Positions 53,815 to 60,843 of a stretch of 64,000 nucleotides of DNA are shown piece by piece. The notes beneath the pieces are model-generated. The model searched no databases and was not told the DNA's origin. It worked only from the letters and a program-made list of their open reading frames with translations. The DNA is from Lutibacter sp. Its GTDB lineage: Bacteria; Bacteroidota; Bacteroidia; Flavobacteriales; Flavobacteriaceae. Within the stretch, counting starts at the first letter, position 1, and every line of letters begins with the position of its first letter. The DNA is taken from NCBI RefSeq assembly GCF_013139515.1, contig NZ_WTAR01000022.1:1-64000 (forward strand), written 5' to 3'. The position numbers were made by a program, and so were the translations under genes.

Positions 53815-54444
53815 TTATTTAGTTGCCAATGCCAATCCTTCTAATGCTGATACATCATTTGGTTTATTTAATAGTGCTTTTTGAAATAACACTTTTGCTT
53901 CTTTCTTTTTACCCAGTTGCAAATTTGTCCAGCCATACATTAATAAACCATCATAATCAAAAGGATATAAATCTACTATTTGTTTATAATACATTTGAGC
54001 TTTGTCAAATTGTGAACGATTGTAATAAATAGTTCCTAAATAATACATTGCTTTGGTATTATGTGGCGAATTTTCTAAAATACTTTTATATATAATTATT
54101 ACTTCTTCCCAATTACCTATGGCAGCTAATGGAAAAATAGTTCCAAATTTTGGTTCATCAGCATAAGGCATCAATTCACTTGCTTTATTATAAAAAATAA
54201 TAGATTCGGTAAAATTTCCGGCCATATAGTTTAACCAACCTAAACGTAAATTGGTTTCATAGGAGTTTTCATCGTATAAACCTTTTAACTCATCTGCGGC
54301 TAATTTATAATCCCCATCTGCTTCAAATGAATAACTTTTACTAAATGCTTCTTGTAAATTTGTAAAATTTACTTGTGCAAATACTACGGGTTTCACACAT
54401 AAAATAAACAATCCTATAATACTTATCTTTCTTAAAATTTCCAT
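53815..54444 (-). CDS. Secreted TPR protein of the YaiO/UT-M23 operon
   Basis: The 209-residue protein has a signal peptide (...KPVVFAQ) and four to five tetratricopeptide repeats (YSFEADGDYKLAADELKGLYDEN, YMAGNFTESIIFYNKASELMP, YYNRSQFDKAQMYYKQIVDLYP, LQLGKKKEAKVLFQKALLNKP). It is periplasmic or surface exposed and probably a scaffold. Its start overlaps the end of the YaiO-like gene by 13 bp, so translation is coupled. Confidence 0.85.
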   Translation of the reverse strand: MEILRKISIIGLFILCVKPVVFAQVNFTNLQEAFSKSYSFEADGDYKLAADELKGLYDENSYETNLRLGWLNYMAGNFTESIIFYNKASELMPYADEPKFGTIFPLAAIGNWEEVIIIYKSILENSPHNTKAMYYLGTIYYNRSQFDKAQMYYKQIVDLYPFDYDGLLMYGWTNLQLGKKKEAKVLFQKALLNKPNDVSALEGLALATK

Positions 54445-55748
54445 GTAATTCCTGCTGTTATATTTTGTTGGTTAAATGTAAATACTTTTGATGTGCTATC
54501 TAAATTTTCAGTATAATAATTATCTTCTAGCTCCATAAAAGAATAACCTACTTTTATAGTTGAACTTTTAGTAAAAAATTGGACTACTGCTCCAAATTCA
54601 TTCAATGCTGTTGCAGCTTGATTGTAAAGTACTGCTCCATTATTAGCTGTAAAGTTATGCATATCACCAACAGTTCCGTAACCAACAATTGAAAACTTTT
54701 CGGTGTTAACAGATAAACCTCCTGTAAAAATCGTGCTTGAATCTGGATCTTCATTTTGATATTGAAGACCTCCAAATGGCACAAATAAAGTGCTTCCTAA
54801 AGGGTATAAAGCCATATTATAACCTGCTTGAAATTGGTTGTAACCATTTAAATTAGAAACCGAAACATTTATGGTATTTCTCATAAAGTATGAAGCTTTT
54901 GACAATGAACCACCAAAAACAATATCGCTATAATTTATAGTTGAAGATGATGAAGTTGATCTTCCTGGTCCTCCAACAGGAATTGTAGTATCTACATTTA
55001 AATTATCATAATCTCCATAAACAACATGTATAAATGTATCTAAATACCATCTATTTCCTAAAGCAACAGTTACATCTGCATAATAGCGTGTTTCGCTTCC
55101 TTTATATGTCTGGTTTTCAAGTAAATCTCCGCTATTTCCTTGCTGAACTGATGTAGTTGACATTACTGAAAGCTGATGAAATAAATTTACTCGTTTTGAC
55201 AAAGGATGGCTAAGCCCTAATGAATACAACTGATAATTTTCAGGAAATAAACGTATATCTCCATCTTCTGAATTTGTATCGGCTTTTAATAAAGCATCAT
55301 AATCTACATTGTTAGTTGCCAATACATTTAAACTTAAAGAACTTACAAAGGGATATTCCAAATTAATGGATTCTTTTAACTTCTTATTCATTTTATCATA
55401 AAATAAACGTGATTCTAATAACAAACCACTATAACGATATGACCAATATAAATATTCTTGCACTACAACATCATACGTATCAACCGCATATGCTTCTTCT
55501 AATAATTGAATGGCATTTAACATTTTATTTTCTTTAAAATAGGCAATTCCCATACGAACTTTCAAATAATAAAAATCAATTCCTGCAGCTCTAGATTCTT
55601 TCCCTAAAGCTAATAAAGGCTTCCAATCCTGTTTTAAATAAAGTGCATACGTTGTGCTATCTACTTGTTTAAATGATAAGGATGCTTTTTGTGCATTGGC
55701 AGCAGTTACCAACCACAAAACCAATATTACTGTAAGTTGTTTTCCCAT
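54432..55748 (-). CDS. YaiO-like outer-membrane beta-barrel protein
   Basis: The 438-residue protein has a signal peptide (...VTAANAQ), an N-terminal TPR-like part (about 20-130) and a barrel half (about 150-438) with alternating strands such as LYSLGLSHPLSKRVNLFHQLSVMSTT and SSTIKVGYSFMELEDN, ending ITAGITWKF. This is the YaiO barrel layout, seen next to TPR proteins and polysaccharide-modifying enzymes. It overlaps its upstream partner (UT-M23) by 22 bp and its downstream partner (TPR) by 13 bp. Confidence 0.83.
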   Translation of the reverse strand: MGKQLTVILVLWLVTAANAQKASLSFKQVDSTTYALYLKQDWKPLLALGKESRAAGIDFYYLKVRMGIAYFKENKMLNAIQLLEEAYAVDTYDVVVQEYLYWSYRYSGLLLESRLFYDKMNKKLKESINLEYPFVSSLSLNVLATNNVDYDALLKADTNSEDGDIRLFPENYQLYSLGLSHPLSKRVNLFHQLSVMSTTSVQQGNSGDLLENQTYKGSETRYYADVTVALGNRWYLDTFIHVVYGDYDNLNVDTTIPVGGPGRSTSSSSTINYSDIVFGGSLSKASYFMRNTINVSVSNLNGYNQFQAGYNMALYPLGSTLFVPFGGLQYQNEDPDSSTIFTGGLSVNTEKFSIVGYGTVGDMHNFTANNGAVLYNQAATALNEFGAVVQFFTKSSTIKVGYSFMELEDNYYTENLDSTSKVFTFNQQNITAGITWKF

Positions 55749-57958
55749 TTTAATTTAATTTTTGAATTTTTTGAGGTTTTACATTCAATATGTATCGTCT
55801 TATTTTTAAATACTACACTGTTAGCTGAAAATAGTACGCGATTTTTATTTCCTTCAATTTTAGATTGAAGTTCCATATTTTGAGGACTAAACGTTTGCTC
55901 CGTTTCTTTATAAGAAAGTTGATATTTACCTTTTAAAAATAGGACTAAAGGAACTAAAAAATCTTGAATTGTTAATAAAGGAAATCGGTATAAATGATGT
56001 ACAGGAAACCTTGTTTTTATCAACAAATTAGTTTGATCGCTTAACACTACTTTATAAAAAGAACGATAAAAATAAAACAACGCACTTCTTTTAGAACCCA
56101 AATAATTTAAGCTAGAAAACGTTTTGCCATTATTTTCATAATACAGTTTTGCATTTGTTTTTAAGCAGTGCAAATAAGACTGGTTATAACTATCAACCTC
56201 ATTTATAATTGAATAACTAACTTCTTTCTCAGCATCTTTCATTATTCTTAGCTCAAATTCATCACCAGGATTCCATTTAAAAGCATTTTGCAATAAAGTA
56301 ACTGTAGAAATAGTAGCTATAGTTTCTCCTTCCTTCGGAATTCCTTTTTCTACCAAATTTAATGATGAGTTATCATCTTTCACAATATATTCAAACAATG
56401 GCCAAAACGTAGTTTGATCACCAATTTTTGAAGTAGATTGCAATTGAAAATGTAAATGTGGGTATGGAGAACGACCAGAATTACCACATTTTCCAATTCC
56501 CTGACCTTCAACAACAACATCACCAATATGTACGGTAATTGAACCTTTTTTTAAATGACTTACTTTTGAAAACAAATACATATCGTGTTGTATTACAACT
56601 GTATTTCCCCAATTTTGAAGTGTATTTGCAACACCTATTTCATTATCTTCAATAGTATTAACAACTGCCACAACAGTTCCCATTGCAGGAGCAATTACTG
56701 GTTTATCAAAACAATAATAATCACTTGTTAATAGTCCTTCTCCTTGAAATTCTTTTCCTGAAATAGCATCTTTAATAATAAAATCCCAAGCATATTTAAA
56801 AAAAAATTTGTGTGTATAAGCACCATCATGACCTTGATTTACTGTCCATTGTCCCATAAATGGCAAACGAATAGGGATTGTAAAAGCGGCATATTCCTTT
56901 GCTGAATGACTATCGAATAAATACGCATTAGTTTCAGGATTTTTTTGCTGAATTAAGGTTAAAATTGGTGATTTTGCTTGATTGTAACGTATTTTAAACG
57001 CGTATAAAACTCCTATAACAATCATATTAAAAGGCAAAGAGAAAGCCGATAATTCAAAAGAAGCAAAAAGCCTATCTGAACCTATTGTTGTTACTACTAA
57101 TACAGGAATTAACACTAAACTCCATACAAATGAAGCTTTTGATGGAATTAAAAAATAACCACCAATGGCAATGGCTGACAATATAAAGTTAAAACCATAG
57201 TATGTATAATTTAACGAACCCGTGTACATTCCTAAAAATGAGTAAAACCAATACGCTACAAAAAAACCAACCAATGATAATAAAAAATTAACTCGAGAAT
57301 GAATTAACAAACCAATTGAGATAAGCACTCCTGCCAAAATATTAAATTGAAAAAAAATTGCGCCTAATGATAAAAAATAGGTGTCAAAACCAGTATCAGC
57401 AAAAAAAGTAGTAAGTGTATCAACAATTACAACAAGTGTATTTCCGCCTAATTTAAAAAACATATTAGAAGGATACAAAGCTTCTGTATTTAACGCTATT
57501 TTAGAAAATGAAGGAAACGCTAACAGCATTAACCACATTCCAAACAAAAATGGAATACTTAAAAATGGGAGTTTATATTTTGCAAACAATCCCATAATAA
57601 CTATTGTGCTAAAAAAAGCGATAGTACCGCCAACAATAATTAATAACAATACTTCTAAACTTGGTAAAAAATACGTGCCAATACCTAAACCTACTAGCAA
57701 AGCATTAAAACTAAAAAGCCCTTGTTTAGCAATAACTGGAGAATATTCAAGAACTGTAGACAAGCCAACAGCTGTTAAAACTGCTATAAGTCCGCTTAAA
57801 CCTGTCCACCAATCAATAAAACTTACAACAACTAATATTGATGCTAAAATTTTATTTTCAGTAAAAAAAATTTGTGAGTAGCTTGTTAAAATAGCTTCTC
57901 CAATAAAAAGGCTTTTTTTTAAAAGTTTATCTTTCATTTGAAATATATAGGACTTCAT
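55727..57958 (-). CDS. Urea transporter fused to an M23-type peptidase domain
   Basis: This 743-residue protein is a fusion. Residues about 20-320 form a urea-transporter (UT) domain: FSFNALLVGLGIGTYFLP, LPFLSIPFLFGMWLMLL and the second repeat FNFILSAIAIGGYF, with about ten helices. Residues about 340-520 are an M23/LytM-type domain: WTVNQGHDGAYTHKFFFKYAWDFII, VIAPAMGTVVAVV, HLKKGSI and GNSGRSPYPHLHFQL with the HxH metal pair. The remainder is beta-rich. M23 domains cut peptidoglycan peptides. A channel-peptidase fusion is unusual; what it carries or cuts is unknown. Confidence 0.87.
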   Translation of the reverse strand: MKSYIFQMKDKLLKKSLFIGEAILTSYSQIFFTENKILASILVVVSFIDWWTGLSGLIAVLTAVGLSTVLEYSPVIAKQGLFSFNALLVGLGIGTYFLPSLEVLLLIIVGGTIAFFSTIVIMGLFAKYKLPFLSIPFLFGMWLMLLAFPSFSKIALNTEALYPSNMFFKLGGNTLVVIVDTLTTFFADTGFDTYFLSLGAIFFQFNILAGVLISIGLLIHSRVNFLLSLVGFFVAYWFYSFLGMYTGSLNYTYYGFNFILSAIAIGGYFLIPSKASFVWSLVLIPVLVVTTIGSDRLFASFELSAFSLPFNMIVIGVLYAFKIRYNQAKSPILTLIQQKNPETNAYLFDSHSAKEYAAFTIPIRLPFMGQWTVNQGHDGAYTHKFFFKYAWDFIIKDAISGKEFQGEGLLTSDYYCFDKPVIAPAMGTVVAVVNTIEDNEIGVANTLQNWGNTVVIQHDMYLFSKVSHLKKGSITVHIGDVVVEGQGIGKCGNSGRSPYPHLHFQLQSTSKIGDQTTFWPLFEYIVKDDNSSLNLVEKGIPKEGETIATISTVTLLQNAFKWNPGDEFELRIMKDAEKEVSYSIINEVDSYNQSYLHCLKTNAKLYYENNGKTFSSLNYLGSKRSALFYFYRSFYKVVLSDQTNLLIKTRFPVHHLYRFPLLTIQDFLVPLVLFLKGKYQLSYKETEQTFSPQNMELQSKIEGNKNRVLFSANSVVFKNKTIHIECKTSKNSKIKLKWENNLQ

Positions 57959-57970
57959 ATAATAATTTTA

Positions 57971-57996
57971 TGGATTCCAGCCTTCGCAAGAATGAC
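57971..57996. repeat. REP-like palindromic repeat (degenerate)
   Basis: GGATTCCAGCCTTCGCAAGA is a degenerate copy of the ATTCCTGC-cttc-GCAGGAAT palindrome that is scattered between genes in many Bacteroidetes genomes. A related CGTTCCTTCTTCGTTATGACG lies at about 58078-58098. Confidence 0.5.
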
Positions 57997-58006
57997 AAAG
58001 TAATTA

Positions 58007-58014
58007 CAAATCTA
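58007..58014 (-). promoter_or_regulatory. -7 box upstream of the UT-M23 gene
   Basis: TAGATTTG on the minus strand; a TTTG at 58034-58031 lies 16 bp further up, shorter than the usual 19. It suggests UT-M23, YaiO and TPR genes can be transcribed separately from the decarboxylase genes. Confidence 0.35.
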
Positions 58015-58123
58015 AAGGAGAAGTGAGCAACAAAGCAATCTTAAAATTTGAACTTCTTAATTACAGGTAATTTTAGTCGTTCCTTCTTCGTTATGACGTA
58101 TTATTATTACTTTTTAATTTGTA

Positions 58124-58175
58124 AGACTGAGCTTGTTGAAGTGTTTACTTTAATTATCTTCTACAAGCTCAGACT
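58124..58175. repeat. Inverted intergenic repeat
   Basis: AGACTGAGCTTGTTGAAG and CTTCTACAAGCTCAGACT form near-perfect arms about 16 bp apart. TGAGCTTGTxGAAG is a common interspersed palindromic element of Flavobacteria. It may act as a terminator or mRNA stabiliser after the PLP decarboxylase gene. Confidence 0.6.
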
Positions 58176-58192
58176 AACATTTTATCACTATT

Positions 58193-59554
58193 TTATTTAT
58201 TCTGAAGGTATTCTGGCACTAATTCTTGTCTTCTAAATACTTCTTTATCTTCAGCTTTTCGTACCAAATGCACTTCTCCTTTTTCATCAATTAAAACAAT
58301 ATTAGGACGATAGGTAATAAACTGCATCCATTGTGTCATGGTGTACGCTCCTACTCTTTTCACTACAAAATGATCTCCTTTATTTAACATTGGAAAATCT
58401 ATATTTTTACGAATCACATCAATATTCATACATAAAGGCCCGTAAATTGTTGTTGGCTCTGATTGAAAACTTGATTCATGTACCGGATAAATTTCGTGAT
58501 CGTACCAAAAAGCAGTGAACATTAAATTTACACCTGCATCAATTACCATAGATCGTCTTCCGTCAGCTAAACGCTTATTTGCTAAAACGGTTCCTGCCAA
58601 CCAGCCGGCATCATCAATTAAAGCCCGTCCTGTTTCTAAAATTAACATTGGAGTTTCATTATTTGGAAAATTAACAGCTGTCATAGCCGTTGTAATTGAA
58701 TGTGCATAATCATCAAAACTTGGTGTAGTGTCAGTTGCTAGCATATACGCACCTTGTAATGTGTTTTGTGATGCAAAACCTCCACCAACATCAATATAGC
58801 CAATACTAGTTTGAAAACGATCGTATGTTTTATTTGCCAAAGCTGCTAATTTTTCAACTGCAGTAGCATATGCTTTAGACATTGTTATATACGTTCCTAT
58901 ATGAATGTGTAACCCAATTAAATCTATTTTTCCGTTAGAAAGTAACCTGTTTATTGCATTCCAAGCTTCACCATTTTCATAATTAAATCCGAAACGATCC
59001 CACTGAGGAATAATTCCTGTATCCATATTTACCCGAATTGCAACTTGTGGACGTTCTTTTAATTTATCAACCAAACCAATAATTGTGTACAATTCATCAA
59101 AATGATCTATATGAACTAATGATTTATTGTTGATGGCTCTTATTAAATCGGCATCGCTTTTATCTGGTCCGTTAAAAATAATTTTATTTCCAGGTGTGCC
59201 ATTATCTATTGCTTTTTCATATTCAAAGCCTGAAACTACTTCAGCCCAAGCTCCTTCTTGATGAAAAATACGGCAAACAGCATCTAAATAATTAGTTTTA
59301 TATGACCATGCAAATTGCACTTTTGGATACCGTGTAGAAAACGCTCTATGCGCAGTTCTATAGGTTTCTCGCATTGTTTTTTCAGAAATAACAAACACTG
59401 GAGATCCATATTTTTCAATAATACCATCAATGGGTACATTGTCTATAGTTTCTATGGGTTGCAACCTTTTTACACTTCCAAATTTGTTTGGAATTCCTTC
59501 AACAACTTTTCTTAATACCGGGCGTTCATATATTTTTTTATTCATTTTTTTCAT
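58193..59554 (-). CDS. Type III PLP-dependent decarboxylase-like enzyme
   Basis: The 453-residue protein has the alanine-racemase-like PLP barrel: Lys86 in FAWSYKTNYL, HIHIG at 216-220, VGGGF at 256-260 and ETGRALIDDAGW at 307-318. The C-terminal domain has the active-site Cys375 in GPLCMN and GAYT. These features place it with diaminopimelate/ornithine/arginine decarboxylases of group IV; the substrate-specificity helix is not diagnostic by eye. Given its ATP-grasp and PqqD-like neighbours it may act on an amino acid made or tethered in a small pathway (inference). It lies 2 bp after the ATP-grasp gene. Confidence 0.86.
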   Translation of the reverse strand: MKKMNKKIYERPVLRKVVEGIPNKFGSVKRLQPIETIDNVPIDGIIEKYGSPVFVISEKTMRETYRTAHRAFSTRYPKVQFAWSYKTNYLDAVCRIFHQEGAWAEVVSGFEYEKAIDNGTPGNKIIFNGPDKSDADLIRAINNKSLVHIDHFDELYTIIGLVDKLKERPQVAIRVNMDTGIIPQWDRFGFNYENGEAWNAINRLLSNGKIDLIGLHIHIGTYITMSKAYATAVEKLAALANKTYDRFQTSIGYIDVGGGFASQNTLQGAYMLATDTTPSFDDYAHSITTAMTAVNFPNNETPMLILETGRALIDDAGWLAGTVLANKRLADGRRSMVIDAGVNLMFTAFWYDHEIYPVHESSFQSEPTTIYGPLCMNIDVIRKNIDFPMLNKGDHFVVKRVGAYTMTQWMQFITYRPNIVLIDEKGEVHLVRKAEDKEVFRRQELVPEYLQNK

Positions 59555-59556
59555 TT

Positions 59557-60600
59557 TTATAATTCTCCAAACATGATTATTTTTTCAAAATCGGCAATAT
59601 CACCTATTAAATCCCACGAATAACGGATAAACATTTTACCGTAAGCGTATTCAGTTACTGGTGCTACTTTTTCTCCCATTGCCATTCTGCATAACATTTC
59701 AGGAATATTTTGCCCTGCGCCAACTGCTAAATACACCCAAGCTGGTATACGAGGATTAATTTCAATTAAATGATATTCACCATCATCAGTCTTTATCATT
59801 TCAAGTTCCATAGCACCACGCCATTTTGTTTCTTTCATAATATGATGTGTTATTTCAAGTAAACGTTCATCATTTAATGTAATTCCTCCCCAAGCCTTTC
59901 CTTTATCTGTAATATATTGTTTACGCATAGCAACTGCAGAAATTGTATTTCCTTCTCCATCACCTAATGCAATTACATTTACTTCTGTTCCATGTACTGC
60001 TTCTTGTACTATAACTGGAAGTCCCCATTTTGCAGATAATTTATTAAAATAATACACACCTTGACTTTGGTTTACCACTTTATAAGCTTCGTAAAACTTA
60101 CCTTTTATATAATATGGATATGATAAAGGTTTTGGCAAATTTGCCAATTCTTTACTATTTAAAATTGGTTTACTAGCTGGTACGGTAATATTATATTTTT
60201 TAGCAAACTCAGGTAAATTATCTTTATGTCGTTCTTCAAACTGCTCCATAGTTGGTAAGAATGTACGAATACCCATTTCTAACAATTTTTTGCTAAATTT
60301 TATAAATAAGTACAATTCTGAATCAAAATTTGGAATAATTAAATCTAATTGCTCTCTTTCCTGAATATACGTTAAACGATCTAAAAATGCTTCACTTCCT
60401 GTTGAAGGGAAAGGCATTAGGTACGTTTTATCTACCAAATTTGGCATATAAATTCCTGGTTCTAAATTTTCATAGGCTAAACCTATAATTCGAACATTCA
60501 TTCCTGAATCTTTTATTCCTCTAATTACAGAAACTCCAGGACCTGGACTATCAATATTATTTAAACCTGTAACTGCTATAGTTATTTTTTTTGATGCCAT
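59557..60600 (-). CDS. ATP-grasp ligase
   Basis: The 347-residue protein has an N-terminal Rossmann-like part (ITIAVTGLNNIDSPGPGVSVIRGIKDSG), a central ATP-grasp region with YPYYIKGKFYEAYKV as the nucleotide-site Lys strand and VIVQEAVHGTEVNV, and the metal-site string YHLIEINPRIPAWVYLAVGAGQNIPEMLCRMAMGE. This matches CarB/PylC-like carboxylate-amine ligases, which activate a carboxylate as acyl phosphate and join it to an amine. The substrate is unknown. It sits between the PqqD-like and decarboxylase genes with 3- and 2-bp gaps. Confidence 0.86.
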   Translation of the reverse strand: MASKKITIAVTGLNNIDSPGPGVSVIRGIKDSGMNVRIIGLAYENLEPGIYMPNLVDKTYLMPFPSTGSEAFLDRLTYIQEREQLDLIIPNFDSELYLFIKFSKKLLEMGIRTFLPTMEQFEERHKDNLPEFAKKYNITVPASKPILNSKELANLPKPLSYPYYIKGKFYEAYKVVNQSQGVYYFNKLSAKWGLPVIVQEAVHGTEVNVIALGDGEGNTISAVAMRKQYITDKGKAWGGITLNDERLLEITHHIMKETKWRGAMELEMIKTDDGEYHLIEINPRIPAWVYLAVGAGQNIPEMLCRMAMGEKVAPVTEYAYGKMFIRYSWDLIGDIADFEKIIMFGEL

Positions 60601-60603
60601 AAC

Positions 60604-60843
60604 TTAGTCTAACATATTTTCACGTTTTAAAAAATCTAAATACTCATATAAATCACGACCTGCAGTTACTTTATCTATTTCAAATTCAGTTGTAATTTCA
60701 TCAATAATTTCATTGGCGGGTTTTCCTTCTTTTAAATGATGAATAATTAATAAACCTAATTCATTTGTTGTAAACGACTCACCTGTAGATGGTTTAAAAA
60801 TAAACCCGTTATCACTTATGGCTAGTGAATTTAATTTGCTCAT
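60604..60843 (-). CDS. PqqD-like small protein
   Basis: The 79-residue protein has the PqqD fold pattern: SLAISDNGFIFKPSTGESFTTNELG, LIIHHLKEGKPANEIIDEITTEFEIDKVTAGRDLYEYLDFLKRENML. PqqD domains are peptide-recognition elements in RiPP pathways and guide substrate peptides to modifying enzymes. Here no radical-SAM enzyme is near; the ATP-grasp is the adjacent enzyme. No obvious precursor peptide was found upstream. It heads the operon. Confidence 0.82.
   Translation of the reverse strand: MSKLNSLAISDNGFIFKPSTGESFTTNELGLLIIHHLKEGKPANEIIDEITTEFEIDKVTAGRDLYEYLDFLKRENMLD

Follow-up and report, generated by a model that had tools for sequence, protein, structure and literature searches.

A conserved six-gene unit in Bacteroidota is probably an RRE-organised biosynthesis-and-envelope module

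Six minus-strand genes of a Lutibacter genome form one conserved unit whose two blocks are inherited together. They probably make up a biosynthesis-and-envelope module, in which a ligase and a decarboxylase organised by an RRE would produce an amide-linked amine that is handled at the envelope by a UT channel, an M23 peptidase, an outer-membrane barrel and a TPR protein. The RRE, a PqqD-like protein, most likely recognises the N-terminal tail of the module's own decarboxylase. The genes lie in the window, by which is meant the whole stretch of 64,000 nucleotides that was analysed.

Block 1 begins with gene 1 (60604..60843, minus strand), which encodes a discrete PqqD-like RRE of 79 aa (PF05402, 2.5e-09). 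It continues with gene 2 (59557..60600, minus), an ATP-grasp ligase of 347 aa (ATPgrasp_Ter PF15632 and ATP-grasp_3 PF02655), and gene 3 (58193..59554, minus), a PLP decarboxylase of 453 aa belonging to the DAPDC/FigC/BtrK clade (PF02784/PF00278), with internal gaps of 3 and 2 bp. Block 2 consists of gene 4 (55727..57958, minus; 743 aa), a UT channel (PF03253, 3.2e-51, 174.7 bits) fused to an M23 peptidase (PF01551, 4.3e-14), gene 5 (54432..55748, minus; 438 aa), a barrel protein, and gene 6 (53815..54444, minus; 209 aa), a TPR protein, with overlaps of 22 bp (gene 4/gene 5) and 13 bp (gene 5/gene 6). The six genes, their coordinates, gaps and overlaps, and the 234 bp between the blocks were all exactly as the original prediction had placed them, and Pfam confirmed its family assignments for genes 1 to 4 (PqqD, ATP-grasp, PLP decarboxylase and the UT-M23 fusion) and for gene 6 (TPR). 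When the locus was compared with that of a congeneric relative, third-codon-position changes predominated in all six genes, which is coding-type divergence. Because of this pattern, and because the complete gene order is found again in distant genera, where the flanks differ, the six genes are not chance ORFs.

The original prediction had linked the two blocks by inference and proposed a check of neighbourhood co-occurrence, and when this was run on a phylum sample of 396 Bacteroidota genomes (related genomes included; ATP-grasp called at E<=1e-60), independence of the blocks was not seen. The ATP-grasp was found in 34 of the 396 genomes and the UT-M23 fusion in the identical 34 and none besides, two further UT-M23 profile matches in the sample being to the M23 domain only. 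The association (Fisher 6e-50) involves 27 genera and is a figure in which the kinship of the genomes remains. Where block 2 does not adjoin block 1, the UT-M23 gene was found elsewhere in seven of the eight genomes concerned, and at some loci one or more block-2 genes are missing beside block 1. The co-occurrence and the retention of block 2 in split genomes therefore favour linkage of the blocks. Four relatives carry the six genes in the same order with different flanks, one contig stopping inside gene 5. A scan of named genomes gave 229 encoded relatives, and in the best 80 of these 229 loci gene order is kept while the flanks vary, in hosts that include Bacteroidales, Flavobacteriales, Ignavibacteria, Chlorobiota/Kapaibacterium MAGs and one MAG labelled Victivallaceae. 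All six genes are near full length in 46 of these best 80 loci, and many of the others are cut off at the ends of short contigs. For five of the six proteins the pairwise distances are correlated (0.81-0.92), and genes 5 and 6 overlap by exactly 13 bp in 47 of 54 loci.

Occurrence is patchy. The ATP-grasp is present in just 5 of 201 genomes of a Flavobacteriaceae sample. At five loci the module group and the host do not correspond: Seonamhaeicola and Polaribacter carry a Lutibacter-type module, and a Bacteroidales-type module is present in a Lutibacter MAG and an Algibacter MAG. These mismatches and the patchiness suggest horizontal transfer of the whole module. A role in plasmid mobility was also considered and was rejected, the sole match being a distant Streptomyces protein with 27% identity. 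In the part of the literature that was covered, no report was found of PqqD, ATP-grasp, decarboxylase and urea transporter together, nor of UT, M23 and YaiO together. Culturable hosts of the module include Lutibacter agarilyticus, Lutibacter citreus, Polaribacter sp. Hel1_85, Seonamhaeicola sediminis and Labilibaculum euxinus.

The inter-block gap of 234 bp (57959..58192) contains repeats, as the original prediction had said, and they have copies elsewhere in the genome. Since two of its pieces (57967-58010 and 58127-58172) match such dispersed sequences, the gap looks like a local expansion; in 37 of 69 loci it does not exceed 40 bp. An imperfect inverted repeat (58115-58184, 27-nt arms, 81% complementary) overlaps a dispersed repeat between the blocks and may be either a mobile-repeat remnant or a terminator. 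Sigma-70 promoter and terminator scans, which are ill-suited to Bacteroidota, gave no clear difference from shuffled sequence.

By profile comparison, the PqqD-like protein is nearest to the B1 RREs that bind lasso-peptide leaders. A profile of 41 PqqD-like sequences matched TbiB1 (2.5e-11), TfuB1 (1.8e-08) and PbaB1 (3e-05), and true PqqD at just 0.15-0.36. B1-type RREs grip leader peptides through a [Y/W]xxPx[L/V/I/F/A] motif (PMC13381572). The groove residues N33, Y60, F74, M78 and L83 of LppB correspond to N27, Y/F54, F/Y68, L72 and L/M/I77 in the module protein, which thus combines relation to solved B1 RREs with a conserved groove and a cognate YxxPx[L/V/I] partner that it is predicted to bind. 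A different role for this protein, as a LysW-like carrier working through a conserved C-terminal residue, was rejected, its C-terminus not being conserved.

The partner motif lies in a leader-like tail at the N-terminus of the decarboxylase (residues 9-26, YERPVLRKVVEGIPNKFG; 59477..59530, minus strand), where the motif [YF]E[RK]Px[ILV]...K[FY]G was found in 109 of 109 orthologues, also at loci with strongly diverged PqqD proteins; the segment written out is [YF]E[RK]Px[ILV]x5Gx3K[FYIM]G. The Pro, the aliphatic residue following it and the Lys at Tyr+15 are present in all 109, and the Gly at +11 in 106. The tail lies ahead of the part that can be aligned with FigC and is absent from the genome's own LysA, and among 635 other proteins of the loci only 2% have Y..P.[LIVMF] in their first 45 residues. 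In the crystal structure of LppB with its leader, D70 hydrogen-bonds the leader Tyr (PMC13381572). Because the alignment with LppB (9x8z) is ungapped in this region and all twelve named LppB residues fit at one numbering offset, D70 corresponds to residue 64 of the PqqD-like protein, an Asp in the window (codon 60652..60654, minus strand). These contact assignments rest on one published complex and the alignment.

Residue 64 was picked in advance from the LppB contact and was predicted to follow the Tyr/Phe state of the tail. A tail Tyr occurs with Asp or Asn at residue 64 in 68 of 69 cases (the exception has His) and a tail Phe with Tyr, Ser or Ala in 24 of 24, in sequences that were chosen by similarity to the window's ATP-grasp and share ancestry. 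The mutual information of residue 64 equals 100% of the tail entropy, compared with 33% for the next position, and the pair ranks first among 20,010 PqqD x decarboxylase column pairs. On a control tree inferred from the ATP-grasp together with the tail-less part of the decarboxylase (a single tree with a simple rate model), the tail switches between Tyr and Phe about 8 times; residue 64 changes about 7 times, and the joint label needs 8 changes. When independent evolution was simulated, none of 20,000 runs fitted as well as the data: every run had at least 13 mismatches, versus 1 observed. Since both sides co-evolve at a contact predicted from RRE-leader structures, it is very likely that the RRE binds the decarboxylase tail. 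This would amount to a natural specificity code, Tyr with Asp/Asn and Phe with Tyr/Ser/Ala, that extends the Tyr-Asp and Trp-Gln pairs of the crystal structures.

The constancy of the tail can be read in a second way, namely that the tail serves as the substrate, a RiPP-like precursor joined to the enzyme, which the RRE presents, the ligase loads with an amino acid (for example on the invariant Lys at Tyr+15), the decarboxylase processes in cis and the M23 peptidase releases. Beyond the part that would bind the RRE, the Lys at +15 and the Gly at +17 vary no more than the binding motif does, with identical spacing from Tyr to K-x-G in 108 of 109 sequences, and BtrK-type relatives act on carrier-bound amino acids. 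Lasso leaders likewise place their key Thr near +15. They often have Gly at core position 1, in keeping with the published leader motif and Gly preference (PMC6784204). However, the invariant residues may just contact the ligase or the enzyme body, and the tail is rather unlikely to be the substrate. Slightly less likely again is a precursor-free RRE system in which a decarboxylase with a built-in leader and attachment Lys would carry its own swinging arm, which the ATP-grasp charges while the RRE grips it and which a cytoplasmic M23 domain unloads at the mouth of a repurposed urea channel.

A classical RiPP pathway, with its precursor elsewhere in the genome and the decarboxylase tail a mere leader mimic, would fit the lasso-class identity of the RRE, and unlinked precursors have precedent in some RiPP systems. 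However, when all gaps and 900-bp flanks of the best 80 of 229 loci were searched for a precursor peptide, no conserved small ORF was found; the search yielded antisense or internal fragments of an AraC-type regulator, missed PqqD starts, chance clusters and nothing else. No free-standing copy of the tail motif was found in 1.68 Mb of module loci either, the two "other" matches being decarboxylases too. The lasso B2 leader peptidase (PF13471) is above cut-off in only 3 of the 34 module genomes and absent from the window's genome, and the state of the decarboxylase tail can be predicted in full from residue 64. A classical pathway is accordingly improbable. Of the original prediction, the combination of peptide recognition, ligase and decarboxylase fits these results, while a separate modified-peptide substrate does not, none being conserved. 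Membership of a RiPP or lasso-peptide cluster is not supported, no conserved precursor gene having been found in the best 80 loci and the B2 peptidase being rare in the module genomes, and an asparagine-synthetase-like lasso cyclase was not seen, by size or type, among the recurrent neighbours of the loci. A graspetide synthetase cluster is not supported either: no dedicated precursor for the ATP-grasp was found in the best 80 loci, and the enzyme is CarB/PylC-like.

The closest solved protein to the decarboxylase is the N-citrylornithine decarboxylase 7kh2 (1.8e-74), followed by LysA and BtrK. The paper on FigC places that enzyme in a clade with SbnH, AcsE, MccE and BtrK, all from natural-product pathways. 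Catalytic K86, H218, E307 and C375 are invariant in 72 of 72 sequences, and Thr327, Tyr331 and Met355 of FigC are kept as T347, Y351 and M376. The Arg of DAPDC is missing (Thr347 takes its position), as is the Asp of ornithine, arginine and carboxyspermidine decarboxylases, and the citrate-binding H357 and R387 of FigC are replaced by I378 and Q408, again in 72 of 72. The kept Thr, Tyr and Met, the missing Arg and Asp and the lost citrate residues together suggest a conjugated substrate without citrate. Identity as a housekeeping LysA was rejected, as the TIGR01048 score of 208 bits is below the cut-off of 297.9, a true LysA (377 bits) is encoded elsewhere in the genome and the Arg is replaced. 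Identity with FslC/FigC was rejected likewise, on a score of 225 bits against a curated cut-off of 500 and on the two replaced citrate residues. A rhizoferrin-type siderophore or metallophore pathway, for which FigC/FslC as the closest characterised decarboxylase would speak, is on the evidence of these replacements improbable, and no NIS synthetase was seen among the recurrent neighbours. Finally, that two unrelated operons are adjacent by chance, which the 234-bp gap with repeats in this genome might be taken to indicate, is contradicted by the co-occurrence counts, the kept order, the split loci, the short gaps in relatives and the correlated distances, and is almost certainly wrong.

The ATP-grasp model (AlphaFold2, pLDDT 88) has a CarB/PylC-like fold whose best match is 2pn1 (TM 0.75/0.84), with PylC among the matches; the fold search placed it in the superfamily and gave no substrate clue.

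The UT channel domain of gene 4 (56999..57895, minus strand) has an altered pore. At the position of the dvUT Glu/Gln (A200 in the window's protein, E187 in dvUT), Ala or Ser was found in 64 of 64 module UTs, whereas all nine readable stand-alone Bacteroidota UTs have Glu or Gln. The two signature threonines (LPxxTxPF), both Ser in the window, are Ser or Ala in the module UTs (with one Thr) and Thr in all stand-alone UTs. A true urease is encoded in 1 of 34 module genomes versus 6 of 10 genomes with a stand-alone UT, and five further urease matches in module genomes are weak (about 25 bits) and resemble other amidohydrolases. Urea metabolism, or a functional urea transporter, was rejected on these counts and pore residues. 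The M23 domain (56399..56854, minus strand) has H383, D392, H501 and H503, which we take to be its zinc ligands (H, D, HxH), and these are invariant in 64 of 64 sequences, as is His 468. Loop charges, read with the general topology of UT proteins, place both UT termini in the cytoplasm, and the averaged profile has no strong hydrophobic segment after the UT. At one locus (L177, 4444-6698, in a single-contig genome) UT and M23 are separate genes with a 4-bp overlap, either a natural split or a frameshift, and the separate M23 has no signal peptide. From these three observations a cytoplasmic M23 domain is likelier than a periplasmic one, with modest confidence. The channel-peptidase of the original prediction is thus upheld as a fusion, with the provisos that the urea-site acid and both threonines are lost and that the peptidase would more likely face the cytoplasm. 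With these proteins comes a further subfamily of urea channels, one whose pore is altered.

Genes 5 and 6 both begin with signal-peptide-like segments. Gene 5 had no Pfam or NCBIfam match at 1e-3, and its AlphaFold2 model (mean pLDDT 91) has a TPR-like helical N-domain followed by a barrel of about 14 long strands, with fold matches to FadL, OmpG, BcsC and PelBC. The predicted outer-membrane barrel is therefore borne out by the model, but the family name YaiO is unproven, since no curated model matched. At five loci (L178-L182, families f17 and f35) the order is UT-M23, TPR and then a presumed barrel of about 280 aa that lacks the N-terminal TPR, which looks like a new division between TPR and barrel.

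Two kinds of neighbour recur. An AraC-type regulator of about 195 aa is present in 34 of the best 80 loci, mostly directly upstream of gene 1, and is not beside the module in the Lutibacter group; Pfam finds its HTH part only, and its N-terminal domain resembles a degenerate metal-binding domain (HMA-like, IKNMLCxCC). In two distant groups the module is accompanied by secreted proteins of about 260-280 aa that bear T9SS-type sorting tails; their genes lie between genes 2 and 3 at six loci and at or near gene 1 in L178-L182. Homology between the two protein groups may extend past the tail (hhalign probability 89% over 163 columns), and they may serve the pathway as a partner or target at the surface.

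In the preferred reading, that of an RRE-organised pathway to an amide-linked amine, the RRE clamp would unite the decarboxylase and the ATP-grasp ligase, or present the tail to the ligase. The ligase would first link an amino acid through an amide, so that its end no longer carries a charge, and the decarboxylase would then strip the carboxyl from this conjugate, leaving an amide-linked amine. We infer that ligation precedes decarboxylation, that the clamp organises the enzymes and that a small amine-bearing product would be exported. More tentatively, this product might pass the inner membrane through the UT channel, which lacks the urea-coordinating acid, might be processed by the attached M23 domain on the cytoplasmic side before or during passage, and might leave through the TPR/barrel pair.

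Like BcsC and PelB, gene 5 has a helical TPR domain and then an outer-membrane barrel, but with about 14 strands versus the 16 of BcsC/PelB-type exporters, and because it matches FadL and OmpG equally, polymer export is not implied. The module UT shares its fold, the first-site Gln and the aromatic residues with dvUT and the stand-alone UTs, but differs in the Ala/Ser at the second site, the M23 fusion and the lack of a urease link. The decarboxylase and FigC/FslC (7kh2) have the same fold, the same catalytic residues and equivalents of T327, Y331 and M355; however, the partner of FigC is an NIS synthetase and that of the module enzyme an ATP-grasp, and the module enzyme has the extra leader-like tail. 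BtrJ, BtrK (7ru7, 2j66) and BtrI, which have their known roles in butirosin biosynthesis, share with the module the logic of pairing an ATP-grasp ligase with a PLP decarboxylase that works on an amino acid in conjugated form, but the butirosin system uses an acyl-carrier protein where the module has an RRE. RREs have been used as a near-diagnostic sign of RiPP clusters, yet lasso machinery is missing around many discrete RREs of the lasso type (RRE-Finder, PMC7470986), and the module offers one explanation for such orphans, namely that the leader can be part of an enzyme. TbiB1, TfuB1, PbaB1 and LppB belong by profile to the same protein family as the module RRE, and on both sides the partner peptide has a [Y/W]xxPx[L/V/I/F/A]-type motif, with Phe allowed. 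Unlike the lasso and LPP systems, the module has no leader peptidase and no conserved precursor was found, and whereas their RREs read the motif on a precursor peptide, in the module it sits on an enzyme.
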